From: Bacteroidales bacterium
Lineage (GTDB): Bacteria > Bacteroidota > Bacteroidia > Bacteroidales > BM520
Direction of reading: 5' to 3'
NCBI GenBank assembly: GCA_031276035.1
Contig: JAISNV010000019.1
Coordinates: 1 to 64,000, forward strand
Length of the DNA stretch: 64,000 nucleotides
The notes below the pieces were generated by a model that saw only the letters and a list, made by a program, of their open reading frames with translations, did not search any database and had not been told where the DNA came from. The position numbers and the translations under genes were made by a program. Of this stretch, positions 38,276 through 57,838 are shown in pieces; position 1 is the first letter of the stretch, and every line of letters begins with the position of its first letter.

Positions 38276-39625
38276 TCAGTTTTTGAAAAACAGTTCAACT
38301 CTCGTTCCCTTTCCTTCTTCAGATTCAATCTGATAAGCAATATTATTTTTCTCCAAAATACGCAAAGCAATAGACAACCCGATGCCGCTACCTTGCATTT
38401 GATTGGCATTATCGGCTCTGTAAAATGGTTTGCTGACATGGGAAAGTTGATCGGCAGGAATACCGATTCCTTTATCGGTAATGGAAAGATGGAGATATTC
38501 TCCCTGCTTATAAAGTCGCGCTTCCACTGTAATTCCCTGCGAATATTTAACTGCATTTTCCAATAAATTATACAGAGCCATCAGAAGTTGCATGGCATCA
38601 ACATTTATGTTTAATACTGCCTCGTCTTCAACTTTAATATCAACGGAAACCATTATTTTAGATTGCGGATAATTATCGCTGAGTTTGGCAATTATTTCCC
38701 AAATCAACTCATCAATACGCATAGGAGACATACTTGGAGAATCTTTGCGTAAATCCGATATAACCATTAACGTATCTAAGATTTCTTCCAATTGATGTAT
38801 TTGGGTAATTAATTTTTGAGCCAGTTGATCGTATTCATCGGGCGATCGGTCCTTAATTGAAAAAACTTCCAAATTACCAAGCATTGCTGTCAGTGGTGTT
38901 TTAAATTCGTGAGTAACATAGCGAACAAAATTTTTGCGTATAATCATTGTTTCGGAAATTCTTTCCAAAAGCTCGTTAAATGTTTCCGTTAAATTTTGTA
39001 ATTCATCATGTGTATCAGGTGATTCTATACGTAAGCTTTCATCTCCAACAGGAATATTTTTTACCTGATTTACTACTTTGCTAAAGGGGCGGTATGCTAT
39101 AGATGCCATCCACATACTTAATAAGACAATCGCAATTATTCCGATGAGGAACAAAATAACAAGTATCCAAAGTAAAGACCGCATTTGTCCGGTTAATAGA
39201 GCCCGTTTTTCTTTTGTAATAACAACAAAATCTCCTTGATTATCTTCATAAAAGATACCATAACATAAATAATCTGTATCAGTAAATTCCAGTTTTTGTT
39301 TTTGACGTATTTTATCCAATAAATCTGTTGAAATAACGGGAAATTCGGCTCCCCAAACAATAATATTATTAACGTTATATATCTGATAATAAGTGTTTAA
39401 CACAAGTTCTTTAAATTGTTTCTTAACACTTTCAAATTCTTCCGTATTCAATTCATCTTCTTCTAAATAAAAATAAGCGGTAATCAGAGCAGTTTTTTCC
39501 AAATCAGAATAAATTCCATTTTTAGTATTATTGGAATACAATCCATAGATTAGCACTGCAATAATGATAAAGATAATCCCAAATACTATTGAGCTGAATA
39601 AACTGAGACGGGTTTGTACTTTCAT
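38276..39625 (-). CDS. Two-component sensor histidine kinase
   Basis: The product is 449 residues. It has two membrane helices (about 8-30 and 150-175) enclosing a periplasmic sensor of about 120 residues, a HAMP linker (PFSKVVNQVKNIPVGDE) and an H-box VTHEFKTPLTAML with His239. The ATPase motifs are NLLENAVKYSQ (N), DKGIGIPAD (G1) and GSGIGLSIA (G2). The layout fits CusS/ArlS-type kinases. Its partner regulator lies upstream on the same strand, with one small gene between them. An efflux system nearby makes metal or envelope sensing plausible, but the signal is not established. Confidence 0.88.
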   Translation of the reverse strand: MKVQTRLSLFSSIVFGIIFIIIAVLIYGLYSNNTKNGIYSDLEKTALITAYFYLEEDELNTEEFESVKKQFKELVLNTYYQIYNVNNIIVWGAEFPVISTDLLDKIRQKQKLEFTDTDYLCYGIFYEDNQGDFVVITKEKRALLTGQMRSLLWILVILFLIGIIAIVLLSMWMASIAYRPFSKVVNQVKNIPVGDESLRIESPDTHDELQNLTETFNELLERISETMIIRKNFVRYVTHEFKTPLTAMLGNLEVFSIKDRSPDEYDQLAQKLITQIHQLEEILDTLMVISDLRKDSPSMSPMRIDELIWEIIAKLSDNYPQSKIMVSVDIKVEDEAVLNINVDAMQLLMALYNLLENAVKYSQGITVEARLYKQGEYLHLSITDKGIGIPADQLSHVSKPFYRADNANQMQGSGIGLSIALRILEKNNIAYQIESEEGKGTRVELFFKN

Positions 39626-39708: not shown

Positions 39709-40017
39709 TTATATAAGTGAATTCAGCTGGATTTCTATATTCACATTAATATAGTCAAGGTACTTGGATAAAATTATGTAATTGCATTCCTCAATACTGC
39801 TTTGTGCGATGTTGAAGAATCGTAATTTATTAATTTTTCCCTTTTTCTTATGTCTTTCAACAATATTAGCAGGGATTGATACGACTGCTTTTAGAAACCG
39901 AGAAGTTAATTCGCATAATTCAAAATCTGGAAATTTCTTAATACATTTATTGCCTTGTAAAACAAAAGAGCGCTCTTTCCGCCACATTACCAAATCATTA
40001 AATGATTGCGATTCCAT
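39709..40017 (-). CDS. Four-helix-bundle protein (S23/23S rRNA intervening-sequence type)
   Basis: The product is 102 residues with the family pattern SFNDLVMWRKERSFVLQ, FPDFELCELTSRFLKAVVSIPANIVE and FFNIAQSSIEECNYIILSKYLDY. These small proteins occur in rRNA intervening sequences, in diversity-generating retroelements as Avd, and singly across Bacteroidota genomes. The usual family length is about 115-120 residues, so the C-terminus is slightly short. It separates the response regulator from the sensor kinase (49 and 83 bases away), an unusual site for an insertion. Confidence 0.75.
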   Translation of the reverse strand: MESQSFNDLVMWRKERSFVLQGNKCIKKFPDFELCELTSRFLKAVVSIPANIVERHKKKGKINKLRFFNIAQSSIEECNYIILSKYLDYINVNIEIQLNSLI

Positions 40018-40066: not shown

Positions 40067-40750
40067 CTAACTTCCTCCCTTAATCATATACCCCACTCCC
40101 TTTATCGTTTCGATAAGTTTATTATCATACTCATTATCAATTTTATTTCTTAGATAAGATATATAAACGTCCACAACATTTGTATTGGTATCGTAATTTA
40201 AGCCCCAAACAGTATCCAATATTTGCGTACGGGAAAGAACTTTGTTCTTGTGTTCCAACAGATATTGTAGTAACTTGAATTCTTGAAATGTTAATTTAAT
40301 TTCTTTTCCGTTTCGTTCAACCTTGTATTGATCTATATAAAGCTTCAGGTCATCACACTCCAAAATATTCGAAGGCGTATCGTAAGAAAGCTTTACTCTC
40401 CGGGTTAAGGCGTTAATACGGGAAATCAATTCTTTGAAATGAAAAGGTTTGGCAAGATAATCATCAGCGCCGTAGTCCAACGCTTTTACCTTGTCATCAG
40501 GTTCTCCGAGAGCACTCAATACAAGTACCGGCGTATGTATTTTTCGATAGCGGATATATTGTAATAATTCAATCCCATCAATATCCGGCAACATAATATC
40601 CAGCAAAATTACATCCCATTGTTTTCCGGTAATTAACTCTCTTCCAACCGAACCATTTTCTGCTAAAACAATTGAAAAACCGCTTTCTTCCAAACCTTTA
40701 ACAATAAATTCGCTGATACGTCTGTTGTCTTCTATTAAAAGGATATTCAT
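40067..40750 (-). CDS. OmpR-family response regulator
   Basis: The product is 227 residues. The receiver domain has the acidic pocket near the start, phosphoacceptor Asp51 in LLDIMLPDIDG and Lys in DDYLAKPF. A winged-helix DNA-binding domain follows (TFQEFKLLQYLLEHKNKVLS to YISYLRNKID). It resembles CusR/CopR/ArlR regulators. With the kinase on the same strand it forms a two-component pair, and the phased direct repeats before the efflux genes are the kind of site such regulators bind; that link is inferred only. Confidence 0.9.
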   Translation of the reverse strand: MNILLIEDNRRISEFIVKGLEESGFSIVLAENGSVGRELITGKQWDVILLDIMLPDIDGIELLQYIRYRKIHTPVLVLSALGEPDDKVKALDYGADDYLAKPFHFKELISRINALTRRVKLSYDTPSNILECDDLKLYIDQYKVERNGKEIKLTFQEFKLLQYLLEHKNKVLSRTQILDTVWGLNYDTNTNVVDVYISYLRNKIDNEYDNKLIETIKGVGYMIKGGS

Positions 40751-44794: not shown

Positions 44795-47700
44795 CTAACT
44801 TCTTTCCCGATATTCTTTCCTGTACGCATAATAAAAAATCTGCGGAAGAACAGTAAAAGAAAGTATCATACAAACAATTACGCCGCCAACTATCATAATC
44901 GCTAAAGGTTTTTGAACTTCCGACCCCATTCCGGTTGATAAAGCAGCCGGAAGTAATCCCATCGAGCCCATCAATGCAATCATCAATACAGGACGAATAC
45001 GTCTTTTGACAGCCTGGTCGATAGCAACATGCAGATTGCGAACTTGTTGTAAACGTTTTTTCATCAAAGACATTAGTAATATACTATCTATTGATACAAT
45101 GCCTAATAAAATGATGAATCCGACACCTGCCGAAATTCCAAAAGTTGTTCCTGTTACCCAAAGCGATAAAAATCCGCCTATAAAAGCAAACGCCATAGCA
45201 CAGACAGAAATTAATGTGTCTTTAACTGTTCCGAAATGCATATATAGTAAGAATATTATCAAAGCAAGAACAATGGGAATTACCATCATCAAGCGTTTGG
45301 ATGCACGCTGCTGGCTTTCAAATTCTCCGGCCCATTCCATTTTATTGCCGGCCGCGAGTTGCACGTTCTCACCAACTCTCTGTTGAGCTTCTGCAATGGT
45401 AGAACCTAAATCACGATCGCGAATGCTGAAACCGACACTTACGTAACGACTACTTCCTTCCCTGTAAATGAATGCAGGTCCGGTAATAAAACGAATATCG
45501 GCGATCTCTTTCAACGGAACCTGTTTTCCGTCCATAGTCGGAATGAGAATATTGCCGATTTTTTCTTCATTATCGCGAAAATATTTCTGGAAACGAATAA
45601 CAACATCGAACATTCGTTCATTTTCATAAAAATGTGTTGCCGCTTTACCTCCTATTGCCATTTCAACTACAGCCTGAGCGTCCTGCATGGAAACGGCATA
45701 ACGCGCCATCCGCGATTCTTCCAGTTTTAGCTGCAATTCGGGGAGACCTATGCTACGGAAAACATTCACATCTTCCACCCCGCGAACATCTTTGATTGCG
45801 TTTGCTGTTTGATTTGCCAAATCCTCCAATTCCCGCAAATCGTTTCCGAAAATTTTTATAACCAGAGAACTTTTAACACCTGCAACGTATTCTTCCACAT
45901 TATCTTGTATGGGCTGACTAAAGGCAACCACAATTCCAGGATAAACGCTGAATACATCCTGCATTTCTTCAATTATTCCATCTTTTGAGATTTTTCGATT
46001 CCACTTCTTTTCAGGTTTTAATTCAACATGAAATTCTATATTGAAAAATCCGGTTGCATCCGTTCCGTCATTGGGACGACCCGTCTGGGTAAGAATAAAA
46101 TCAATCTCGTCAAATTTCTGTAACTTGTGTTTCATCTCTTTGGTTAAGCGCACCGATTCATCAAGATTAACGCTGTTAGGCAAAGTAGCACGGATATAAA
46201 TGGCGCCTTCGTTCATGCTGGGAATAAACTCTGTTCCCCAGAAGTTGAAACGCACCAGACAAATAACCAATAAAACAACAAATGAAACAATAACACTTTT
46301 CCGGTGACGAGATGAGAAGGCATACAAAGCGTATATTTTAGATGTAAAAAATTCGCTGATACGATTTCTCCTCTCTTTTATAGGCTTTTTAAGTAATATT
46401 TTACACATGACCGGAACATAAGTCAAAGAAAGGATAAGCGAACCGAGCAAAGCATACGCCAACGTAAAAGCAAGCGGTTTAAACATTTTTCCTTCCACCT
46501 TTTCGAAAGAAAAAATAGGAATCAAAGCCACAACCAAAATGATTTGTGCAAAGAAAATATGGGTAGCCACATTTCCGGCACTTTTCTTTATCAATCCGTC
46601 TTTGCTCAAACGTGTAAAACGACTTCCCAATTCCCGCGATCGCTGTTCCATCGAAACATATATCGCTTCAACAATAACCAATGTCCCTTCTAATAACAAA
46701 CCAAAATCCAGCGCTCCCATGGATATTAAGTTCATCGGCAAACCTTGAATACGGAGCATAATCACAGCAAACAGAAATGATAACGGAATCACCGATGCTA
46801 CGATCAGAGTAGTGCGCCAGTTGAAAAGGAAAATAAATACAATTATCGAAACCAACAAAATACCTTCCAGCATATTTTTCATCACTGTGTTCAAAGTATT
46901 ATCTACAAGCTTTTCCCTGTCCATAAACGGTTCTATCTTTACTTCTTCAGGGAGAATACGGTCGTTCAACTCCCCTATCTTTACTTTCAGTCGGGAAATC
47001 ACTTCACTGGGATTTTCGCCACGAAGCATAATTACAATACCTTGTACAACATCATCTTCGCAGTTTAATCCTACCTGTCCCAATCGGGGTTTTGAAGACA
47101 CACTCACTTCAGCTACCTGCTTGACTCTCACCGGCGTACTTCCTTTTACCTCAATCAAGATATTTTCGATATCTTCTACGCTTTCCAGCAATCCGATTCC
47201 ACGTACAACATAAGCCTGACTACCTTTCTGTATCATATCGCCACCGACATTGATATTGCTGTTTCCAACGGCTTCGTACACCTGCAGGGGCGAGAGATCG
47301 TAATTCTGTAATTCTACCGGATTGACCTTTATTTCATAAATTTTTTCTTCTCCTCCGAAACTGGCAATGGTTGCAACTCCGGGTACCGACAACAATTCAC
47401 GCTGCACTACCCATTCGTTTATTGCTGCTACCTCCCGGATAGGCAAATCGCTCCGCAAAATATAACGGAATATCTCTCCAGTTGCTCCCGAAGGCGGTTC
47501 GATAGAAAGTTCCGCTCCATCTGGCAAGTCAATATCCTGCATACGGTTGGACGCATATTGCTGGGCATAAAAATCATCAACGCCGTCTTCGAACAAAACC
47601 GTAACTACAGAAAGTCCGAACAAGGAAGTAGAACGCACATCCGTTTTACGAGGAATAGTATTAAGCTGCTGCATAATCGGCAGCGTAATGAACTTCTCAA

Positions 47701-47890
47701 CCTCTTCGGCGCTACGCCCAGGCCATTGGGCGATAATTTTTACCCTTGTATTGGTAACATCGGGGTAAGCTTCTATAGGTGTGTTCTTAAAACATATAAC
47801 TCCACCTATCAATAAAATACCTGTAAGAAACAGAATCAGGATATGATTCTTTAAGGAAAAGGCGATTATTTTTTCAACTAATTTATGCAT
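44795..47890 (-). CDS. CusA/CzcA-type heavy-metal efflux RND pump
   Basis: The product is 1031 residues, the length of HME-RND transporters. It starts with a membrane helix (ILILFLTGILLIGG), then the porter-domain motif TNTRVKIIAQWPGRSAEEVEKFITLPIMQQL of the CzcA family. TM4 carries the acidic GALDFGLLLEGTLVIVE proton-relay segment. A second periplasmic half and six further helices follow. It should pump a metal cation (Cu, Ag, Zn, Co or Ni) or a related substrate from the periplasm through a channel. The matching adaptor and channel genes are 7.2 kb upstream on the same strand instead of adjacent. Confidence 0.92.
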   Translation of the reverse strand: MHKLVEKIIAFSLKNHILILFLTGILLIGGVICFKNTPIEAYPDVTNTRVKIIAQWPGRSAEEVEKFITLPIMQQLNTIPRKTDVRSTSLFGLSVVTVLFEDGVDDFYAQQYASNRMQDIDLPDGAELSIEPPSGATGEIFRYILRSDLPIREVAAINEWVVQRELLSVPGVATIASFGGEEKIYEIKVNPVELQNYDLSPLQVYEAVGNSNINVGGDMIQKGSQAYVVRGIGLLESVEDIENILIEVKGSTPVRVKQVAEVSVSSKPRLGQVGLNCEDDVVQGIVIMLRGENPSEVISRLKVKIGELNDRILPEEVKIEPFMDREKLVDNTLNTVMKNMLEGILLVSIIVFIFLFNWRTTLIVASVIPLSFLFAVIMLRIQGLPMNLISMGALDFGLLLEGTLVIVEAIYVSMEQRSRELGSRFTRLSKDGLIKKSAGNVATHIFFAQIILVVALIPIFSFEKVEGKMFKPLAFTLAYALLGSLILSLTYVPVMCKILLKKPIKERRNRISEFFTSKIYALYAFSSRHRKSVIVSFVVLLVICLVRFNFWGTEFIPSMNEGAIYIRATLPNSVNLDESVRLTKEMKHKLQKFDEIDFILTQTGRPNDGTDATGFFNIEFHVELKPEKKWNRKISKDGIIEEMQDVFSVYPGIVVAFSQPIQDNVEEYVAGVKSSLVIKIFGNDLRELEDLANQTANAIKDVRGVEDVNVFRSIGLPELQLKLEESRMARYAVSMQDAQAVVEMAIGGKAATHFYENERMFDVVIRFQKYFRDNEEKIGNILIPTMDGKQVPLKEIADIRFITGPAFIYREGSSRYVSVGFSIRDRDLGSTIAEAQQRVGENVQLAAGNKMEWAGEFESQQRASKRLMMVIPIVLALIIFLLYMHFGTVKDTLISVCAMAFAFIGGFLSLWVTGTTFGISAGVGFIILLGIVSIDSILLMSLMKKRLQQVRNLHVAIDQAVKRRIRPVLMIALMGSMGLLPAALSTGMGSEVQKPLAIMIVGGVIVCMILSFTVLPQIFYYAYRKEYRERS

Positions 47891-48475
47891 ACGATTTTAG
47901 AATTATTAGCTATGAGTTATGAATTATGGGGTTAGAGGAGTTTAGATGGCGGTGTGTATATGAAATCATTGAAAAGTAAATAGAATGAAAAAAGAATAAT
48001 AATCTGATATTTTGAAACATTTCTTTTTCGATTTTTCCATAAAATAATACCTTAATAACTTCTTCGGTTTCTTCTAAATTATTAACTTCTTTAACTTCTA
48101 TCATCATTAACTCTATTACCTTATACTAATTTCATAACTTCCCTGACTTCGATTAATATCTTACTTACTCTCATTTATAATGCAAAAGTAATCTCCCAAG
48201 ATTAGATGCTTTTTTGAATCAGATTAAAATAGGATTAGAAAAACCATCATCGTTAATGTATTTATACTGAATCATGCAATCTCCAAACTCATTCGACTTC
48301 TTAGCTTTTATATCTTCTTCAAATCCAAAACATTAATCAAAATTCCATATTCAATAAAAATAAAAAATACTTTTTTTTCTCTTTCATTAAAATATTTTTC
48401 ATTCTAAGTTGTCAGCATAAATAGAGAGGCCTCTAAAAATAAAATAACAAAATATAAATTTTAAAAAGTAAAATA
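47891..48475. other. 585-base region without a supported gene
   Basis: It contains the pump promoter/operator at 48183-48240 and, between that and the pump ATG, about 290 bases rich in TAACTTCT/TAACTCC-type short repeats. A 65-codon minus frame at 47910-48107 consists mainly of these repeats and is not convincing. The length of the leader, compared with 25 bases at the other copy of this promoter, suggests a deletion or rearrangement. Confidence 0.5.
48183..48240 (-). promoter_or_regulatory. Promoter/operator of the RND pump gene
   Basis: The minus-strand -7 box is TACTTTTG (48190-48183). No TTG element is present at the usual distance. Instead there are GATTAGA-like repeats (plus-strand reading) at 48200, 48222 and 48233, 22 and 11 bases apart. 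The whole block aligns without gaps to that at 57779-57838. Helically phased direct repeats and a missing -33 suggest an activator of the OmpR type. Confidence 0.52.
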
Positions 48476-48820
48476 ATGACAACAAGAAATTTTGGAAAGG
48501 GATTCTTCGGAAGAAATCCTTTCGATAAAGAAGCAAGAAAAAAGTTTCAAGAAGAATGGTCTAAAATGACCGATAGTGAAAAATTAGACTTTATGAACAA
48601 AAGAGTAGAAAATATGGGAAAAGATCATTTTTCGGTAGAAGCTATTGATGCCCGCTGTGAAGAATGGAAGAAGAAAACGCCGGAAGAAAAACAAGCCTTC
48701 GTTGATAAGAAAAAGGAAGTTATGGAAAAACATTTCGAAGGTCATTTTGGCGGACACGGTTTTGGATTCGGAGAACGTGAAAACTGTTTTTTCGGCATGC
48801 AGACATCAGATAATAAATAA
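48476..48820 (+). CDS. Small soluble protein with W-S-KMT motif, possibly metal-related
   Basis: This 114-residue protein has no signal peptide or membrane helix. It is helical and charged, with EEWSKMTDSEKLDFMNKRVE in the middle and a Gly/His/Phe-rich end (EGHFGGHGFGFGE). The EWSKMT-xE block recurs in the membrane protein at 49307 (KWAKMTPEQRKEFIEKRR), so the two are related. The pattern resembles CpxP/Spy-like or heavy-metal-resistance chaperone helices, but that is weak. It is divergently placed from the efflux pump. Confidence 0.5.
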   Translation: MTTRNFGKGFFGRNPFDKEARKKFQEEWSKMTDSEKLDFMNKRVENMGKDHFSVEAIDARCEEWKKKTPEEKQAFVDKKKEVMEKHFEGHFGGHGFGFGERENCFFGMQTSDNK

Positions 48821-48828
48821 TTGATTAC

Positions 48829-48875
48829 AAAAACAAAAACCGATTGCTTAAATAATCCAATCGGTTTTTGTTTTT
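48829..48875. terminator. Perfect 18-bp inverted-repeat terminator
   Basis: Bases 48829-48846 and 48858-48875 are perfect reverse complements (core AACCGATTG/CAATCGGTT with A- and T-rich outer ends) around an 11-base loop. The T-rich right arm and A-rich left arm make it work in both directions. Confidence 0.8.
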
Positions 48876-48895
48876 ATAAACATCAGCAATAAAAT

Positions 48896-49129
48896 ATGAT
48901 AGACAATAAATCAAACATATTAAGCAAAATTAGTACACCATACATCTGGATAAATACTCGTGATTGTAGAGCGTGTTGGAAATGTGTGGATAACTGTCCC
49001 GAACATATCATCGGAAAAACCGGATTTTTATGGCATAAACATATTGTAATACAAAATGAAGATAATTGCACCGGATGTAAAAAATGTATGCAAATCTGTC
49101 CCAATGGAGTATTTAATGAAATAAAATAA
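48896..49129 (+). CDS. Ferredoxin-like protein with two 4Fe-4S motifs
   Basis: The product is 77 residues with two complete cluster motifs: CRACWKCVDNCPEH (CxxCxxCxxxCP) and CTGCKKCMQICPNG. Between them IIGKTGFLWHKHIVIQNEDN contributes extra histidines. It should bind two 4Fe-4S clusters and carry electrons in the cytoplasm. No oxidoreductase gene adjoins it, so the partner is unknown. It follows a strong terminator, so it has its own transcript or depends on read-through. Confidence 0.85.
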   Translation: MIDNKSNILSKISTPYIWINTRDCRACWKCVDNCPEHIIGKTGFLWHKHIVIQNEDNCTGCKKCMQICPNGVFNEIK

Positions 49130-49306
49130 GGCTTAAATATGAATTGCCATAACATAGTTTTTTATAATTTAGCAGATGGTTTTACATGAAAAATAAACAT
49201 AAATAATATGGAATGATCATGGCCGATTTCTCACTTAATAAAGTGTAATTAAGTCATGCGGTTACATATTATCAGATTGAAAAATAACAAACAAAAGTAT
49301 TTAATT

Positions 49307-49699
49307 ATGAAAAGATTAAAATTTTTAATGCCGATAGGTTTTTTATTGATTGTTGCGGGATTCAGCGCAATTTTAATGTTGTTATGGAACTGGCTGATGC
49401 CTTCCATATTCGGATTAATTACGATTAATTTCTGGCAAGCACTGGGAATATTTATCCTTGCACGCATTTTGTTCAGCAGTTTTGGAGGCGGAAAAATGCA
49501 CATGGGTAAAATGATGGGCCACAATCATCACTTCAATCCTATTCATGAAAAATGGGCAAAAATGACTCCTGAACAGCGAAAAGAATTTATCGAAAAAAGA
49601 AGAAAATTCGGTTTCGGACATCCCCCAAGAGAGGATTTTTTCGAAAGAGAATTTCATAAAGATAATGAAAACGGAGAATGTAATAAGGATAATGGATAA
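49307..49699 (+). CDS. Membrane protein with Met/His-rich metal-binding-like loop
   Basis: The product is 130 residues from the ATG at 49307, which places two membrane helices (about 4-27 and 33-55) directly at the N-terminus. After them comes KMHMGKMMGHNHHFNPIHEKW, a Met/His-rich stretch typical of copper or silver ligands, then the KMTPEQRKEFIEKRRKFGFG block shared with the 48476 protein, and an acidic tail. Its 3' end overlaps the sigma factor gene by 8 bases. It may be the membrane partner of that sigma factor or a metal-handling protein; both are inferences. Confidence 0.55.
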   Translation: MKRLKFLMPIGFLLIVAGFSAILMLLWNWLMPSIFGLITINFWQALGIFILARILFSSFGGGKMHMGKMMGHNHHFNPIHEKWAKMTPEQRKEFIEKRRKFGFGHPPREDFFEREFHKDNENGECNKDNG

Positions 49700-50261
49700 A
49701 CCGAAAGAACAGGAAAATGTAGAAAAAATCTTTTCCGAACATCAATCCAAACTAAAAGCGTTTATTCGTAAACGAGTTTCAAATGAGGAAGATTCGGAAG
49801 ATATTCTGCAGGATGTTTTCTATCAATTGCTGAAAACGATAGAGACCGGGCTTAATCCGATTGAACAAGTAACGGCTTGGCTTTACCGCGTTACGCGTAA
49901 TACGATTATCAATAAAGGAAAGAAGAAGCGGGAAGAACAACTTCCGGAATATCAATACGATGAAGACGATAAGATGTTGAATGATTTTTCGGAAGTGTTG
50001 TTCGGCAATGCTTCCGCTTCTTCACCGGAAACGGAGTATATGCGTTCATTGGTTTGGGAGGAATTGGAAAAAGCTTTGACGGAACTTCCTCCCGAACAAC
50101 GCGAAATCTTTGAACTTACCGAACTTGACGGGCTTTCCGTAAAAGAAATATCCCAAGCTACCGGCGTATCCGTCAACACATTGTTATCCCGGAAACACTA
50201 TGCAGTAAAACATTTACGTAAACGTTTGGAAACATTGTATAATGATTTGATTTATTATTGA
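49692..50261 (+). CDS. ECF-type RNA polymerase sigma factor
   Basis: The product is 189 residues from the ATG at 49692. Region 2 is EKIFSEHQSKLKAFIRKRV to DSEDILQDVFYQLLKTI and AWLYRVTRNTII; region 4 is LTELPPEQREIFELTELDGL with helix-turn-helix SVKEISQATGVSVNTLLSRKHYA. No gene for a typical anti-sigma factor follows. The small membrane protein whose gene overlaps its start is the only candidate partner. The targets are unknown; its position among metal-efflux genes suggests a metal or envelope stress role. Confidence 0.85.
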   Translation: MDKPKEQENVEKIFSEHQSKLKAFIRKRVSNEEDSEDILQDVFYQLLKTIETGLNPIEQVTAWLYRVTRNTIINKGKKKREEQLPEYQYDEDDKMLNDFSEVLFGNASASSPETEYMRSLVWEELEKALTELPPEQREIFELTELDGLSVKEISQATGVSVNTLLSRKHYAVKHLRKRLETLYNDLIYY

Positions 50262-50486
50262 TTTTCGGTAAAACATTTCTTTAAGTATTTAAAAATACAA
50301 TACATTCTGATTTTGGAAGGTTAAAACTTTTATAGAATGAATCTTTTCAAAAGAAGTTATCTGACTTATAATTAATGAATAAAATAAACTTTTCCGGCAT
50401 CTAAGACAAAGGGATAACTCAATAGTGTTTTTATAATTATTATATTGTAAAAAAGACAATAATAACTCAAAGTTCCTTTTTTCTTA

Positions 50487-50516
50487 TTGCCATTTCCTCT
50501 ACTTTTCTTAAGTTTG
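50487..50516 (+). promoter_or_regulatory. Promoter of the GH3 gene
   Basis: TTG (50487-50489), a 19-base spacer and TAAGTTTG (50509-50516), 19 bases before the ATG. Confidence 0.58.
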
Positions 50517-50535
50517 CACTTCAAACAAAAACGAT

Positions 50536-52866
50536 ATGAAACATTTCTTCCTTTCTGCTGCTCTTTTTATTATTTCTCTTTATTCGCTTTTTTCACAGAT
50601 TCCGGATTATAAAAAGCCGGAAAAGAGCGTTGAAGAACGTGCAGAACATCTACTTACCCTTATGACTATTGAGGAAAAGGTAGGTCAGTTAGTTTGCGTC
50701 TTAGGTTGGGAGATGTATGAGAAAAAGGGAGATAGCGTAACCCATTCAAAAAAATTTGAAGAATTGCTTTCAAAGTATCATGTCGGTATGTACTGGGCGG
50801 TTTATCGTGCGGATCCGTGGACACAAAAGACTTTAGAAACAGGACTTTCGCCTCGCCAGGCGGCCGAAGCAGGAAATGCCATGCAGAGATATGCCGTTGA
50901 AAATACGCGTTTGGGAATTCCTATTTTTATTGCGGAAGAAGCACCGCATGGCCATATGGCGATAGGTGCGACTGTTTTTCCTACCGGTATTGGTCAGGCT
51001 TCAACCTGGAATCCGGAATTATTGGAAAAGATGGGAGAAGTTATCGCTAGAGAGATACGTTTGCAAGGCGGACATATCAGTTACGGCCCGGTATTAGATT
51101 TGTCTCGGGATCCGCGTTGGTCGAGAGTTGAGGAGAGCTACGGAGAAGATCCGGTACTTAGTGCAAAATTAGCCGCTGCAATTGTGAAAGGAACCGGTGG
51201 CGGAAATATTGTTGATACTCAAACAACTATTGTTACTCTGAAACATTTAATTGCATACGGGATTCCTGAAGGCGGGCATAACGGAAATACGGCATTTGTC
51301 GGCTACCGTGAACTGCATGAGAACTTTCTGCCGCCTTTTAAAGCTGCTATCGATGCCGGCGCTCTTTCAGTAATGACCGGCTATAATTCTATTGACGGAA
51401 TCCCTTGTACTTCAAATGGCTATCTATTAACCGATGTTCTTCGTAATCAATGGGGTTTTAAAGGGTTTACCATCTCAGACCTGAATAGTGTTGCAGGTAT
51501 TAGCAATGGGCATTTTGTTGCGGAAAATTCTAAAGAAGCGGGAAAATTAGCAATCATTGCCGGCCTGAACGTCGATTTAGGAGGAGATTCTTTTTTACAA
51601 TTAATTGAAGCAGTGAAGAATGCTGAGATTCCGGAAAGCCTTGTTGATACTGCCGTACTTCGGATTTTGAAACTGAAATTTGAAATGGGGCTTTTTGATA
51701 ATCCCTATGTTGATCCGGTAAATGCAGAGCAGTATGTGCGTTCCCCCGAACATATAGCGATAGCCCGTGATATAGCAAAAGAGTCGATTATTTTATTGAA
51801 AAATGACACTATTCTTCCTTTGCAGCGAAATGTGAAAATAGCGCTGATCGGGCCGAATGCCGATAATATTTATAATCAGTTAGGAGATTATACGGCGCCC
51901 CAACCGGAGGAAAATGTAATTACTGTTTTGAGAGGATTGCAGGCATATACTTCACCTGAAAATGTTCGATATGTGAAAGGTTGTGCTATTCGAGATACAT
52001 TACAGTCCGACATTGAGGCCGCTGTTGAGGCTGCCTTGCAGTCTGATGTGGTTGTTGCGGTAGTCGGCGGATCCAGCGCCCGCGATTTCAAAACATCATA
52101 TCAGGAAACCGGCGCTGCAATTGTGGATAACCGGTATATCAGTGATATGGAATCCGGAGAGGGATTTGACCGTGCAGATTTGAATCTTCCAGGACATCAA
52201 TTAAAACTTCTACAAGCTTTAAAATCAACAGGTAAACCGCTAATTGTTATATATATTCAAGGACGGCCGTTGAATATGAATTGGGCAGCAGAACATGCCG
52301 ATGCCTTGTTCACTGCCTGGTATCCCGGACAAGAAGGTGGATATGCAGTTGCAGATGTGCTTTATGGAGAATACAACCCTGCGGGGCGTCTGCCTATTTC
52401 CGTGCCGAAATCCGTAGGTCAGTTGCCGGTCTATTACAATAAAAAAAATCCACAGGGGCATGATTACCTTGAAATGACGGCTAAGCCGCTCTACGAATTC
52501 GGTTACGGATTGAGCTACACAACGTTTCAATATGGCAATCTGAACTTTGAACAGAAAGGGAAACATGCTGTTGAAGTCTCTTTTACTGTGAAAAACAATG
52601 GAAATTTGGATGGAGATGAGGTTGTGCAATTATATCTTCGCGACCACTATGCGTCTGTTGTACAACCGGTCAAGCAGCTAAAACATTTTCAACGAATTCA
52701 TCTCAAACGTGGCGAATCCCAAACAATTCGTTTTCTGCTCACACCCGAGGATTTTAGTATTATTGATAAAGAATTCCGATATATCGTTGAACCGGGAGAG
52801 GTTTCAATTTTGATTGGGAGTTCTTCCGAAGATATTAGATTGGAAAGCATTTGGAAGCTGGATTGA
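50536..52866 (+). CDS. Glycoside hydrolase family 3, beta-glucosidase/xylosidase-like
   Basis: The product is 776 residues with signal peptide MKHFFLSAALFIISLYSLFS. The GH3 N-terminal barrel shows IFIAEEAPHGHMAIGATVFPT, GPVLDLSRDPRWSRVEESYGEDP and KHLIAYG, and the nucleophile Asp315 in GFTISDLNS. A second GH3 domain and a C-terminal fibronectin-III-like domain (EVSFTVKNNGNLDGDEVVQLYL) follow. It is probably a periplasmic exo-glycosidase releasing single glucose or xylose units. It stands alone, with no SusC/SusD pair nearby. The usual Trp after the catalytic Asp is replaced by Leu. Confidence 0.9.
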   Translation: MKHFFLSAALFIISLYSLFSQIPDYKKPEKSVEERAEHLLTLMTIEEKVGQLVCVLGWEMYEKKGDSVTHSKKFEELLSKYHVGMYWAVYRADPWTQKTLETGLSPRQAAEAGNAMQRYAVENTRLGIPIFIAEEAPHGHMAIGATVFPTGIGQASTWNPELLEKMGEVIAREIRLQGGHISYGPVLDLSRDPRWSRVEESYGEDPVLSAKLAAAIVKGTGGGNIVDTQTTIVTLKHLIAYGIPEGGHNGNTAFVGYRELHENFLPPFKAAIDAGALSVMTGYNSIDGIPCTSNGYLLTDVLRNQWGFKGFTISDLNSVAGISNGHFVAENSKEAGKLAIIAGLNVDLGGDSFLQLIEAVKNAEIPESLVDTAVLRILKLKFEMGLFDNPYVDPVNAEQYVRSPEHIAIARDIAKESIILLKNDTILPLQRNVKIALIGPNADNIYNQLGDYTAPQPEENVITVLRGLQAYTSPENVRYVKGCAIRDTLQSDIEAAVEAALQSDVVVAVVGGSSARDFKTSYQETGAAIVDNRYISDMESGEGFDRADLNLPGHQLKLLQALKSTGKPLIVIYIQGRPLNMNWAAEHADALFTAWYPGQEGGYAVADVLYGEYNPAGRLPISVPKSVGQLPVYYNKKNPQGHDYLEMTAKPLYEFGYGLSYTTFQYGNLNFEQKGKHAVEVSFTVKNNGNLDGDEVVQLYLRDHYASVVQPVKQLKHFQRIHLKRGESQTIRFLLTPEDFSIIDKEFRYIVEPGEVSILIGSSSEDIRLESIWKLD

Positions 52867-53126
52867 TATTCCGTTAAATCTAACTTTCCTTTTTTATTTT
52901 TCAGAATTTTCAAAAATTTATCTCATTAATATGAGTTTTATAAATCATTGGAAATTAATTACGGATTATTAAACATGATTTGGATAACTTTAAAAGTAAT
53001 TAGATTCGAATGTCGATTATCACAAACAAGTGAATGTATCAATAAAATTCAGATATAATTAAAATATTTTCTCTTCCAATTTGTCTAATATATAAAAATG
53101 TTCTAAAAAATAATTATAAAAAATAT

Positions 53127-55073
53127 ATGATTACATTCGAATATATCTTGATATTATTGATAGCCATACTTTTATCAAATTTAATCAATAGATTTTTACC
53201 GGCAGTATCCGTTCCAATTATACAAATTATATTAGGAATAATAATTTCATTTGTGCCGTTTGGTTTTAACATTGAACTAAATCCCGATTTATTCTTTGTG
53301 CTTTTTATTGCACCATTAGTTTACAATACTAGCATGCTGCTGGATAAGAGAATGTTTTGGTCATTGAAGATGCCAATTTTAAACATGGCGGTTATTTTAG
53401 TATTGATAACGGTTTTGGGTGTTGGTTATCTAGTTCATTTTATGATTCCAACACTTCCACTTGCTGTTGCTTTTATGTTGATTGGTGCATTAGGACCAAC
53501 CGATGATGTAGCTATCCATTCTGTTTCGCAAAAAGTACCTATTCCTAAAAAATTGATGAATATGCTTACCGGAGAATCCATCATAAATGACGCGACCGGT
53601 ATTGTTTGTTTTCAATTCGCATTAGCGGCAGTAGTAATGGGATCTTTTTCTGCTGCTGGTGCAACAAAACAATTGCTTATTGTGGGTATTGGCGGAATAC
53701 TTGTAGGGTTATCATTTACTATTATTAAACGTCAGCTTGTTAAATGGATTCGCAAATTGGGCATGGATAATGTTACCTTACACACTTTAATTGAAATATT
53801 ACCGCCTTTCTTTGTTTATTTGTTTGCCGAAAAGTTAGGTGTTAGCGGAATATTGGCAGTATTTGCAGCAGGCATAACACAATCATTCGGCAAAGAAAGA
53901 ATAGATCCGAGTACTGCAAATCTAAATATCGCATCAAAGAATATTTGGAATATGCTTTCTTTTACTCTTGAAGGAATTGTTTACCTGATTCTCGGAATGC
54001 AATTACCTATGGTTTTACAAACATTTAAAAACAATACCTATTCATATTCGGTAGGAATGTTACTTTTATTCGTTCTTATCATAACAGTATCTTTTGCAAT
54101 AATTAGATTTGTTTGGTTCTATCTAACAACTCGAAAAAAGTCGTTTTTTGAAAAAAACGAGCCGATAAAAAAATGGAAGGCGGCACTTATTTTCAGTCTT
54201 GCAGGTGCAAGAGGAGCAGTTACAATGGCGAGTGTATTATCTATACCTGTTTTATTAAGTGACGGAACTGCTTTTCCTCAGCGTGATTTAATAATTTTGC
54301 TATCAACAGGAGTAATTCTGTTATCGCTTATCATAACTAATTTCATTCTTCCCGTTGTAGTCGGAAAATCAGATAAATCAACAAAAGAGATAAAGGAGAA
54401 TGAAGCATGTATTGAAATTTTATGTAATGTTGTTGATGCACTTGAAAAATCTGCAACAAAAGAAAATGAAATAGCCGAAAGAATGATTCTGAGCAGGTAT
54501 AAACACAGGATTCAGAACTTACGGTACACTCATACCGATAAAAATAAGGAAAAGATGCTGCGAAATGAAGCTCGGGAATGGGAAAAACAAAATACTATTC
54601 TTCTTATAGAGAGCGGTAGTATAGATGAAGCGGTTGGAAATCGATATTTGTATTCAATAAACAAACATCTAAAATTTCCGGTTTTATTTTCCGGTAAAAA
54701 AAGAAAAAAACGTTTTAAACATAAATTCCATGATAAAGAATTTCATTTTGAAGTATTAAAACTAAAGGAAATCAATGATTCATTTGTTATTAAAAAGCTA
54801 ATTGAGCGGCAACAATATGACAATAGTTATGAGTTGAAGAAAGTACTTTCAGAATATGAATCCAATTTACTTAATATGAATAATATGATTGCAATGGCAG
54901 GACGAAGAAAAGATTTTGCAAAAATAGAAATTGCTATGACTGAAGTTGCATCAACTGCATTTCAAATCGAACGCGATAATATACAAGCAATGTTCGAGTC
55001 TGGACGCATTTCACGTGAGAAAGCTAAAGAACTTCGTAATAATCTTATGTATATGGAAGCTGAACTAAAATAA
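53127..55073 (+). CDS. CPA1-family Na+/H+ antiporter with long cytosolic tail
   Basis: The product is 648 residues. Residues 1-415 contain about 12 membrane helices with the CPA1/NhaP motifs GALGPTDDVAIHSV and GESIINDATGIVCF (the ND pair), and LAGARGAVTMASVLSIPV in a late helix. The last 230 residues are soluble, charged and helical, as in many bacterial NhaP-like exchangers where the tail regulates activity. It should exchange Na+ or K+ for H+ at the inner membrane. No partner genes are evident, and it is convergent with the adaptor gene. Confidence 0.88.
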   Translation: MITFEYILILLIAILLSNLINRFLPAVSVPIIQIILGIIISFVPFGFNIELNPDLFFVLFIAPLVYNTSMLLDKRMFWSLKMPILNMAVILVLITVLGVGYLVHFMIPTLPLAVAFMLIGALGPTDDVAIHSVSQKVPIPKKLMNMLTGESIINDATGIVCFQFALAAVVMGSFSAAGATKQLLIVGIGGILVGLSFTIIKRQLVKWIRKLGMDNVTLHTLIEILPPFFVYLFAEKLGVSGILAVFAAGITQSFGKERIDPSTANLNIASKNIWNMLSFTLEGIVYLILGMQLPMVLQTFKNNTYSYSVGMLLLFVLIITVSFAIIRFVWFYLTTRKKSFFEKNEPIKKWKAALIFSLAGARGAVTMASVLSIPVLLSDGTAFPQRDLIILLSTGVILLSLIITNFILPVVVGKSDKSTKEIKENEACIEILCNVVDALEKSATKENEIAERMILSRYKHRIQNLRYTHTDKNKEKMLRNEAREWEKQNTILLIESGSIDEAVGNRYLYSINKHLKFPVLFSGKKRKKRFKHKFHDKEFHFEVLKLKEINDSFVIKKLIERQQYDNSYELKKVLSEYESNLLNMNNMIAMAGRRKDFAKIEIAMTEVASTAFQIERDNIQAMFESGRISREKAKELRNNLMYMEAELK

Positions 55074-55110
55074 TCCGTTTTTCTCTAACTTCGATAACTC
55101 CTTTAAATTC

Positions 55111-56214
55111 TTAACTCCGTCCCTTCTTCAACTCTTCATAAATCAACAACTGATTTCCGATGACAATATTATCTCCTTCTTGAATTCCCGAAGCAATATA
55201 AGAAACACCGTTATGACTACCTTGCAGAACCACTTCCTTCATCTTATAACTTTCATTATTTTTATCCGCGACCACTAAAAAATATCTGTTATCATCAAAA
55301 ATCAATGCATTAGATGAAACTGTTAAGAATTGTTGATTATCTTGTTTTTGTAATGTAACTAATACCGACATTTCCGGTTTGAATTTTAAATCCGAGTTAG
55401 AAATCGGAATTCTCGCTTTCAAAACCTTTTCTTCCGGATCGAATACTTGTGAAAGTGTTTTGATTTTTCCTTTAAAAATTTCACCGGGATAAGAAAGCGT
55501 TGTTATATCAACCTCCATACCTTCATGCACAAATTGTAAATTTCCGGCATATACATTGGCTGAAATCCATACCGTACTTAAATCGGCAATAGTAAAAACT
55601 ATTTCACCTCCTGACGAAATAGTGCTTCCAGACGAAATATTTTTATCTACTATAAACCCCGTCATCGGCGCTTTAACAGAAAAAGTTCCGTTCAACTCAT
55701 TATATCCATACAAAAACATATCCGTTTCCGTCTTTTGGAGAGACGCTCTACATTGATTTAACCGCGCTTCCACTTCTAATAATTCTCGTTCGGACAACAT
55801 ACCGGAATCAAACATAGATTGAGCACTTTTGAGTTCTCGCTCAACAATCTTTTTCTCCGCTTTTAATGAAGTTTGTTCCGATAACAACTGTGTTAGTTCC
55901 GTACTACGAATGTCAAAAAGTATATCTCCTTTCTTAACTTTATCGCCTAAAGAAAAATAAGTTTTCTCCACTACTCCACTAATTAAGGGAGAATAATGTA
56001 TGATTTTATCCGGGTCGTATTCCACCTTTCCGGTTAGAGTCAAACCTTCCTGCCTATTACTCAAAACCGCTTGAGTAGTTTTTACTTCCTTTAGAAAATC
56101 AGTATGGATTTCACCATTGAGCCCGTCGTTTTCCTTATTTATACCTTTTGAGCAAGAAACCGCACAAGATGCCGCGATGCCCGCAATTAATAATATAATT
56201 TTCTTGTTTATCAT
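55111..56214 (-). CDS. RND efflux periplasmic adaptor lipoprotein (CusB/CzcB-like)
   Basis: The product is 367 residues with a lipoprotein signal (KKIILLIAGIAASCAVSC). The membrane-fusion-protein layout is readable: a barrel-sandwich half PLISGVVEKTYFSLGDKVKKGDILF, a helical hairpin at about 105-160 (QTSLKAEKKIVERELKSA), the second sandwich half GTFSVKAPMTGFIVDKNI and a beta-barrel VWISANVYAGNLQFVHEG. The adaptor links an RND pump to an outer-membrane channel. It is 241 bases downstream of the channel gene on the same strand; the RND pump is distant. Confidence 0.9.
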   Translation of the reverse strand: MINKKIILLIAGIAASCAVSCSKGINKENDGLNGEIHTDFLKEVKTTQAVLSNRQEGLTLTGKVEYDPDKIIHYSPLISGVVEKTYFSLGDKVKKGDILFDIRSTELTQLLSEQTSLKAEKKIVERELKSAQSMFDSGMLSERELLEVEARLNQCRASLQKTETDMFLYGYNELNGTFSVKAPMTGFIVDKNISSGSTISSGGEIVFTIADLSTVWISANVYAGNLQFVHEGMEVDITTLSYPGEIFKGKIKTLSQVFDPEEKVLKARIPISNSDLKFKPEMSVLVTLQKQDNQQFLTVSSNALIFDDNRYFLVVADKNNESYKMKEVVLQGSHNGVSYIASGIQEGDNIVIGNQLLIYEELKKGRS

Positions 56215-56455
56215 TTTGTTTTTGTTTTTTGGGTTAAAAAAATCAGAAAGTTGTACCAGGGTTTAAATTGTTGATTTATAATAAATAACGAAGAAAGCAA
56301 GATGAAAAAATAATAATAACCTATAATCACAAAGATTTTACTTTTCACACTTTTTTAATCAGTATATCAGAATAAAAAAATCATATTCAATAATTAATCA
56401 TCTTAACTTTCTCCATATTTATTAACTTAATAACTCCTTAAACCTCTCTAACTTA

Positions 56456-57754
56456 TTATTCAATATCTTCTCCAACAACATATTGTAACTCTTCAAATTG
56501 CTGTCCGATATTTTTCTTTACCGACAACATGGTTTGTTTAGTGTTTTTATAACTTTCCATAAAATCAATATATTCCAACATACTGATATTTCGTTTCAAC
56601 AGATTCTCGGTATAGACATCCAGCATACTGTCAATTTCAGACAACAAACTGTTATTCTTCATTTTCAAAAAGAAGTCATACACAGAGCCATAATTATTAA
56701 AAGCTTGCTCAACTTCCTGTAGTACCAAATTCTGTTGCTGTTGAAACAAATATTCACTTTGCACTTTATTATAGTGAGCAATTCGTATATTTCCCTGATT
56801 CCGATTTATTATGGGCAAATCTATATTTAATCCGAACCCAACAAAATTCTTCCACACACCGCCATAACGGTCATAATTAACGCTTAACTCCAGATTCGGA
56901 GCACGTTGCGACTTTTCGTAAGAAATAGACTTTTCAAAATATTGTGTTTGAAGTTGGGAATATTTTAAGTCGTGGCGAGAATCTTTAGCTTGTTGAAATA
57001 AATTTTGTAATGAAATTTCTGCCGGATTTTTATACTCTTTTCCATCAGTAACGATTTCCAAGACAATTTGAGTTTGAATATTGAGTAGAGTTCTCAGCAT
57101 TTTTTGCCGTTCATTATATTCCAATCGCACCTCATGTCTCTCATTTTCCAATTCCAGAAGTGATGATTGCAAGCGGAGCAGTTCGCTTTTAGAAACATTT
57201 CCTAAAGAGACTTGAGCTTGATAATTTTCAATCAGCTTATCAAACGCCTCTATTTGATTTGACAATATTGTTTGATATTCTTGCAAATAAACAAGGTCAT
57301 ATATAGATTTTCGTAATTCCGCCTTTAATGATCTCAACATGTCACCAAACTCTTCTACAGCCATTTCTTTAGAAACCTTTTCCATTTTCATCAACTTTCT
57401 CCGCTGTCCGGCAATTTGAATAAACTGACTTAATTCAACGCTGAACTCCGTATTTCTACCGAAATTTCCAAACAAAGGAGGAATTACCTCATCAATGCCT
57501 TCGCGTTGTGAAGATGTACTCCAAAAATTGATTTGGCTTATTGAAAGTGATGGGTTTTCCCATAATTTTGCCTGTGTTATCGCTGCGTCGGCAATATCAA
57601 TATTATATTGTTGAGCTATAATTTCCAGATTTTGTTTCAGGAACATGATTTCCGCTTCTTCCTGAGTTATTTTTTGAACTTGCTGAGTCCGGGCAGGGAG
57701 AACGAAAACCATCCAACAGCAAAAAACAGATAACATATAAAGATATTTTTTCAT
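56456..57754 (-). CDS. TolC/CusC-like outer-membrane efflux channel
   Basis: The product is 432 residues with signal peptide MKKYLYMLSVFCCWMVFVLPA. The OEP pattern is clear: long helices with repeated QFIQIAGQRRKLMK and ELRKSIYDLVYLQEY blocks, the NPSLSISQINF strand, and the internally repeated second half (APNLELSVNYDRYGGVWKNF). It forms a trimeric channel-tunnel with the adaptor downstream. The upstream promoter/operator is nearly identical to that of the distant RND pump gene. Confidence 0.88.
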   Translation of the reverse strand: MKKYLYMLSVFCCWMVFVLPARTQQVQKITQEEAEIMFLKQNLEIIAQQYNIDIADAAITQAKLWENPSLSISQINFWSTSSQREGIDEVIPPLFGNFGRNTEFSVELSQFIQIAGQRRKLMKMEKVSKEMAVEEFGDMLRSLKAELRKSIYDLVYLQEYQTILSNQIEAFDKLIENYQAQVSLGNVSKSELLRLQSSLLELENERHEVRLEYNERQKMLRTLLNIQTQIVLEIVTDGKEYKNPAEISLQNLFQQAKDSRHDLKYSQLQTQYFEKSISYEKSQRAPNLELSVNYDRYGGVWKNFVGFGLNIDLPIINRNQGNIRIAHYNKVQSEYLFQQQQNLVLQEVEQAFNNYGSVYDFFLKMKNNSLLSEIDSMLDVYTENLLKRNISMLEYIDFMESYKNTKQTMLSVKKNIGQQFEELQYVVGEDIE

Positions 57755-57778
57755 ATCTACTTCGCAATTTTATTGCTG

Positions 57779-57838
57779 CAAAAGTATATCCCTAATATTA
57801 GACAGAATTTTGAAGAGGATTAAAATTAGATTAGAAAA
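57779..57838 (-). promoter_or_regulatory. Promoter/operator of the channel-adaptor genes
   Basis: The minus-strand -7 box is TACTTTTG (57786-57779), with a 25-base leader to the ATG. Blocks at fixed offsets from the TGCA at 57777 are ATTAGA (+20), TTTTGAA (+31), GATTAAAAT (+41) and GATTAGAAAA (+52). All recur at the same offsets at 48181. The last two GATTAGA/GATTAAA units are 11 bases apart. Confidence 0.58.

Follow-up and report, generated by a model that had tools for sequence, protein, structure and literature searches.

A metal efflux operon taken apart in a Bacteroidales genome, with a predicted operator-promoter before each of its co-dependent parts

Background

The closest described relatives of the system reported here are the CzcCBA and CusCBA operons, in which an outer-membrane channel, a periplasmic adaptor and a resistance-nodulation-division (RND) pump of family TIGR00914 are accompanied by the two-component genes CzcRS or CusRS. 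Regulators of the PhoB/OmpR type act at pho-box operators, made of direct repeats, 11 bp apart, that extend into the -35 region. We describe a locus with the same three parts and a two-component neighbor in the window (the whole 64,000-nucleotide stretch that we analyzed, from a Bacteroidales bacterium), which differs from the CzcCBA and CusCBA operons in that its pieces are separated by opposite-strand genes and its pump gene has a second operator. We found no published account of the split or of the operator in the open-access literature.

Results

Genes of the locus

The features of the locus are listed in Table 1. The pump belongs to the CusA/CzcA family (854 bits against a curated cut-off of 701 for TIGR00914), and the cognate adaptor (HlyD_D23) and channel (OEP) genes of a heavy-metal efflux (HME) RND system are both present. 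The gene list and the profile searches agree with the first-pass annotation in placing channel, adaptor and pump on one strand at the positions given in Table 1; adaptor and pump lie 7.2 kb apart, and the opposite-strand genes between them, previously counted as seven, are six on recount. For the response regulator the best of all families is TIGR01387 (CopR/CusR), yet its 234 bits fall short of the cut-off of 279.2, and the histidine kinase is below the cut-off of the heavy-metal subfamily TIGR01386; in both respects the pair differs from that of the CzcCBA and CusCBA systems. Relatives have regulator and kinase next to each other; in the window a gene for a four-helix-bundle protein separates the two.

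Table 1. Features of the split efflux locus (positions in the window)
Feature	Position	Strand	Remarks
Outer-membrane channel gene, CzcC/TolC type, 432 aa	56456..57754	-	PF02321 (OEP) profile
Periplasmic adaptor gene, CzcB/CusB type, 367 aa	55111..56214	-	PF16576 (HlyD_D23); TIGR01730 above cut-off
RND pump gene, CzcA/ZneA-like, 1031 aa	44795..47890	-	ACR_tran; TIGR00914 above cut-off
Response regulator gene, receiver plus OmpR/PhoB-type DNA-binding domain	40067..40750	-	Domain profiles
23S rRNA intervening-sequence (four-helix bundle) protein gene	39709..40017	-	PF05635, TIGR02436
Sensor histidine kinase gene, partner of the response regulator	38276..39625	-	Profiles, order in relatives
Block 1, before channel gene	57777..57838	-	Four boxes plus -7 box TACTTTTG at 57786-57779
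Boxes of block 1	57835-57830, 57824-57819, 57813-57808, 57802-57797	-	TCTAAT, TTTAAT, TCAAAA, TCTAAT
Block 2, before pump gene	48181..48242	-	Four boxes plus -7 box TACTTTTG at 48190-48183
Boxes of block 2	48239-48234, 48228-48223, 48217-48212, 48206-48201	-	TCTAAT, TTTAAT, TCAAAA, TCTAAT
Pump leader, 288 nt	47891..48178	-	Exceeds the L091 leader by about 270 bp
Opposite-strand genes in the adaptor-pump gap	53127-55073, 50536-52866, 49665-50261, 49256-49699, 48896-49129, 48476-48820	+	
Cassette: 114-aa protein, ferredoxin, 147-aa membrane protein, ECF sigma factor	48476..50261	+	
GH3 (glycoside hydrolase family 3) protein, Na+/H+ antiporter	50536..55073	+	Names read from sequence

The best solved relative of the pump is ZneA, a pump of another organism (PDB 4k0e/4k0j; E 8e-211). 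In the alignment the acidic residues at ZneA positions D602, E610 and D654 are kept, whereas I, N and E occupy the positions of the CusA methionine triad (M573, M623 and M672); both sets of residues have functional roles. A divalent cation is the best guess for the exported substrate, which is probably not Cu(I) or Ag(I).

Relatives keep the operon whole

We compared the locus with 84 related Bacteroidota loci. In most of them channel, adaptor and pump genes lie side by side; the regulator-kinase pair immediately follows the trio in many Bacteroidales and immediately precedes it in Flavobacteriia and Sphingobacteriia. Phased TCTAAT-type boxes precede the channel gene at 45 of the 78 loci that could be read. 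In the window these five genes (channel, adaptor, pump, regulator and kinase) still follow one another in this order on a single strand, but two breaks divide them into three pieces. Since essentially all other relatives have an unsplit operon with one operator, the arrangement in the window is a derived, opened one, much as the first-pass annotation had proposed; the contrary pattern that it had envisaged, relatives that always show the split with unrelated upstream regions, is not what we see: nearly all relatives are unsplit and have the operator before the channel gene. At the level of sequence, the comparison establishes channel-adaptor-pump-regulator-kinase, with one operator before the channel gene, as the predicted ancestral operon.

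Adaptor and pump are separated in only two other loci, L050 and L091. In L050 the gap holds three genes on the same strand and the pump is without an operator. The gap genes there (L050:678-3500; names read from sequence) encode a DUF262/GmrSD-like protein, a 242-aa protein and a Bro-N/KilA-like protein, and L050 is a sister operon with an independent insertion at the same adaptor-pump junction. In L091, from the Bacteroidales metagenome-assembled genome Iy174_bin98, the pump is 92% identical to that of the window, and the layout is again channel-adaptor, an opposite-strand ECF cassette and operator-pump, with two operators. This is the only other genome found with an opposite-strand split, and the pump-side operator is conserved in it. 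Unlike the window, the L091 gap is without the ferredoxin gene, has a different gene in place of the hydrolase/antiporter pair, and is followed by a pump leader of only about 16 nt from the predicted transcription start. The split, together with a complete predicted second operator-promoter before the pump, is thus evident from the sequences of both loci.

Twin operator-promoter blocks

The first-pass annotation had aligned a block of about 62 bases without gaps upstream of each part, and this holds: of all ungapped alignments of the upstream regions, the best one pairs blocks 1 and 2 over their full length, with 46 of 62 positions identical, and its score of 30 (matches minus mismatches) compares with a maximum of 18 and a mean of 14 in 60 Markov-simulated pairs. 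Both blocks contain four 6-bp boxes whose starts are exactly 11 bp apart, followed by the Bacteroidota -7 box, TAnnTTTG, as TACTTTTG. Direct repeats with 11-bp spacing upstream of a promoter are the mark of a PhoB/OmpR-type operator. As in pho-box operators, the repeats adjoin the core promoter and the regulator has the same domain pair; unlike them, the predicted operator here has four units with TCTAAT-type letters.

A TTG element near -33 is part of the Bacteroidota sigma-A promoter. Read from the block alignment, neither block has it, which agrees with a promoter that depends on an activator. The -7 box of flavobacterial sigma-A promoters lies at -12 to -5 (PMC9723704); placed likewise, the boxes here would span about -61 to -23, and transcription would be predicted to start near 57774 and 48178. 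From these starts the pump leader measures 288 nt, in line with the earlier figure of about 290, whereas the channel leader shortens from 25 to about 20 nt.

A 29-base core pattern matched only the two block sites in the window (0 expected), and a 28-base pattern with three mismatches allowed matched only the same two sites in the whole 2.69-Mb genome. We also built a sequence-only profile from ten blocks, which gave 58.4 and 58.1 bits at the twin sites and 17.4 bits at the next place in the window genome, and which found two strong sites in the genome of L091 and one in that of L037, whose operon is unsplit; because blocks from these genomes were among those that went into the profile, high scores for them are built in, and the informative result is the absence of further sites. 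The genome scan that had been suggested as a check thus returned just two copies, the next match being noise; neither the pattern nor the profile scans yielded a credible further candidate, and no third operator was found before the regulator gene. Operator copy number goes with how many pieces the system is in: the window genome and that of L091 have two copies each, and that of the unsplit L037 has one. A scan for sigma-70 promoters and terminators remained at chance level.

Were the blocks generic sigma-A promoters, they would be uninformative about co-regulation, and the -7 box is indeed a general Bacteroidota promoter element (PMC9723704). The whole block, however, occurs only twice in the genome, with the distance in score given above, and a scan of 393 genomes of the order gave strict profile matches, besides the window genome, in six, each time directly upstream of a channel homolog of this channel family; in at least four of the six the pump follows about 2.4 kb downstream of the operator. 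We therefore regard the generic reading as highly improbable.

Regulator and operator type

Of 44 loci whose neighboring regulator shares 50% identity or more with that of the window, 35 have two or more phased TCTAAT-type boxes; of 17 loci whose regulator belongs to another family (below 40% identity), none has TCTAAT boxes and 16 have TTAAG boxes. Box spacing across loci is 11 bp in 62 cases and 22 bp in 35, the next commonest spacing accounting for 8. The recognition-helix segment reads TNVVDVYISY in the group of the window regulator and TNTIEVYINF in the other. TTAAG operators stand upstream of the channel gene at L054, L058, L061, L065, L068, L071, L089 and others, accompanying the different regulator family in otherwise similar operons. 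On the pump tree the association of regulator and operator amounts to one joint switch and hence to one event rather than dozens, so that the Fisher value is not to be taken at face value; we rejected the locus counts as independent evidence for the pairing, because the single switch explains them. The association fits a role for the regulator at 40067-40750, which belongs to the family whose operons carry the TCTAAT-type operator, as the putative reader of the boxes. Its own promoter has a predicted -7 box, TACCTTTG, in a region without the operator.

The genomes of L091 and L037 (G299 and G300) have operators, and no close homolog of the regulator was found in them (best 36% identity). Both are metagenome-assembled, with completeness not reported, and either incomplete assembly or the use of another regulator would account for this. 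Conservation of the block is a feature of promoter plus operator, and another regulator could therefore use it.

Genes in the gap and the pump leader

Parts of the ECF cassette were also found in genomes G149 and G198, both without a close pump homolog; the cassette is therefore an independent module that became inserted at this site. Upstream of its plus-strand gene at 48476, the interval 48360-48430 holds a promoter-like stretch, AAAATATTTTT followed after about 11 bases by TGTCnnCATAAATAGAG, which is conserved in L091 and L119 in differing surroundings. It looks like an ECF promoter, and the cassette of the 114-aa protein and the ECF factor is on that account probably self-regulated.

Given the short leader in L091, the pump leader in the window contains a later insertion of about 270 bp, and its long form does not belong to the original design. 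We considered and rejected two identities for it, a riboswitch or other structured RNA (an Rfam search was without a match, and the leader folded worse than its shuffles, z +1.68) and a repeat element (the best other match in the genome covers 50 bases at 78%, E 6e-4); no four-helix-bundle gene was found near those other match places. We see no reason to assign a function to the leader.

Discussion

How the split system may work

We think it likely that this is a CzcCBA-type operon in three pieces in which an OmpR/PhoB-type regulator drives both block-bearing pieces. The kinase would phosphorylate the response regulator, which would then bind the four 11-bp-spaced boxes, at about -61 to -23, at both promoters and recruit RNA polymerase to them, the promoters having a good -7 box and no TTG at -33. 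Binding at both sites would cause the channel-adaptor and pump mRNAs to be made together even though they are separate transcripts. Most likely, then, the regulator at 40067-40750 activates the channel-adaptor and pump pieces in parallel, and both halves can probably still be switched on together. The regulator-kinase pair, now with an operator-less promoter of its own, would have lost the positive feedback that it had as the tail of the operon.

Origin and spread of the second operator

The blocks of the window and L091 are more alike by position (53 of 64 identical between the channel blocks and 50 of 64 between the pump blocks) than within either genome (46 and 47), and because they pair in this way the doubling is probably older than the separation of the two loci. 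Three routes to the second operator remain, namely duplication, fusion of two operons and convergence.

Under fusion, two related operons would have joined, one copy losing its pump and the other its channel and adaptor, and the operator before the pump would be the original promoter of the second operon rather than a copy. This would explain why the L091 operator lies about 16 nt before the pump, as it does before the channel gene. The pump of the window and L091 groups with those of L036 and L037 with full support, the tree of channel and adaptor does not group the window and L091 with L037, and the pump block of L091 matches the channel block of L037 at 49 of 64 positions compared with 47 of 64 for its own channel block. 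The adaptor tree, on the other hand, does not reject the L036/L037 grouping (AU p 0.156), and since that test is not significant we rejected a different origin of pump and channel-adaptor despite their differing trees. The adaptor/pump distance ratio (3.3-3.7 in the window) is equally high, 3.81, in the unsplit L036 and L037, and we came across no genome with two complete operons; fusion is, in our judgment, possible and rather unlikely. In the case of convergence, the pump would have gained a promoter de novo after the cassette was inserted, and selection would have built the boxes. The identities between the twin blocks do fall mainly at positions conserved across genera, and in the variable columns the twins agree at 25 of 43, compared with 24-25 of 43 for the best inter-genus pairs (L037). 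The twins nevertheless agree in all four boxes, in the 11-bp phasing of these, in the spacing to the -7 box and in TTTTGCA, and independent building of such a set is less likely than copying; we consider this route distinctly unlikely.

Seven sampled relatives from the genus and family (G001-G007) contain no close homolog of the pump (best 24-34% identity), so the system would have been gained by transfer or often lost, and only one of the 60 relatives sampled around L091 has a strict operator match. Both results would be explained if the split locus moved between lineages or was frequently lost. A fuller scenario, in which another operon of the family supplied the second operator, giving a mosaic of two pumps held together by a shared operator, and the split locus was then transferred horizontally, strikes us as tentative and unlikely.

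Conclusion

Judged from sequence, the arrangement is real and derived: a predicted metal efflux operon has been broken up, and each of the two co-dependent parts has a full operator-promoter. The parts and their regulation are of known kinds, and the interest lies in coordination that has apparently been preserved after splitting. The locus would be a clean natural case of breakage in an operon whose products are needed together, in which every one of the mutually dependent pieces has the regulatory site. For a two-component family that is widespread in Bacteroidota and probably responds to metals, it also yields a precise operator prediction of four 11-bp units and a -7 box; with the TCTAAT operator predicted for this family and the TTAAG type for the sister regulator family, the specificity of regulators for their operators in the phylum becomes directly testable.
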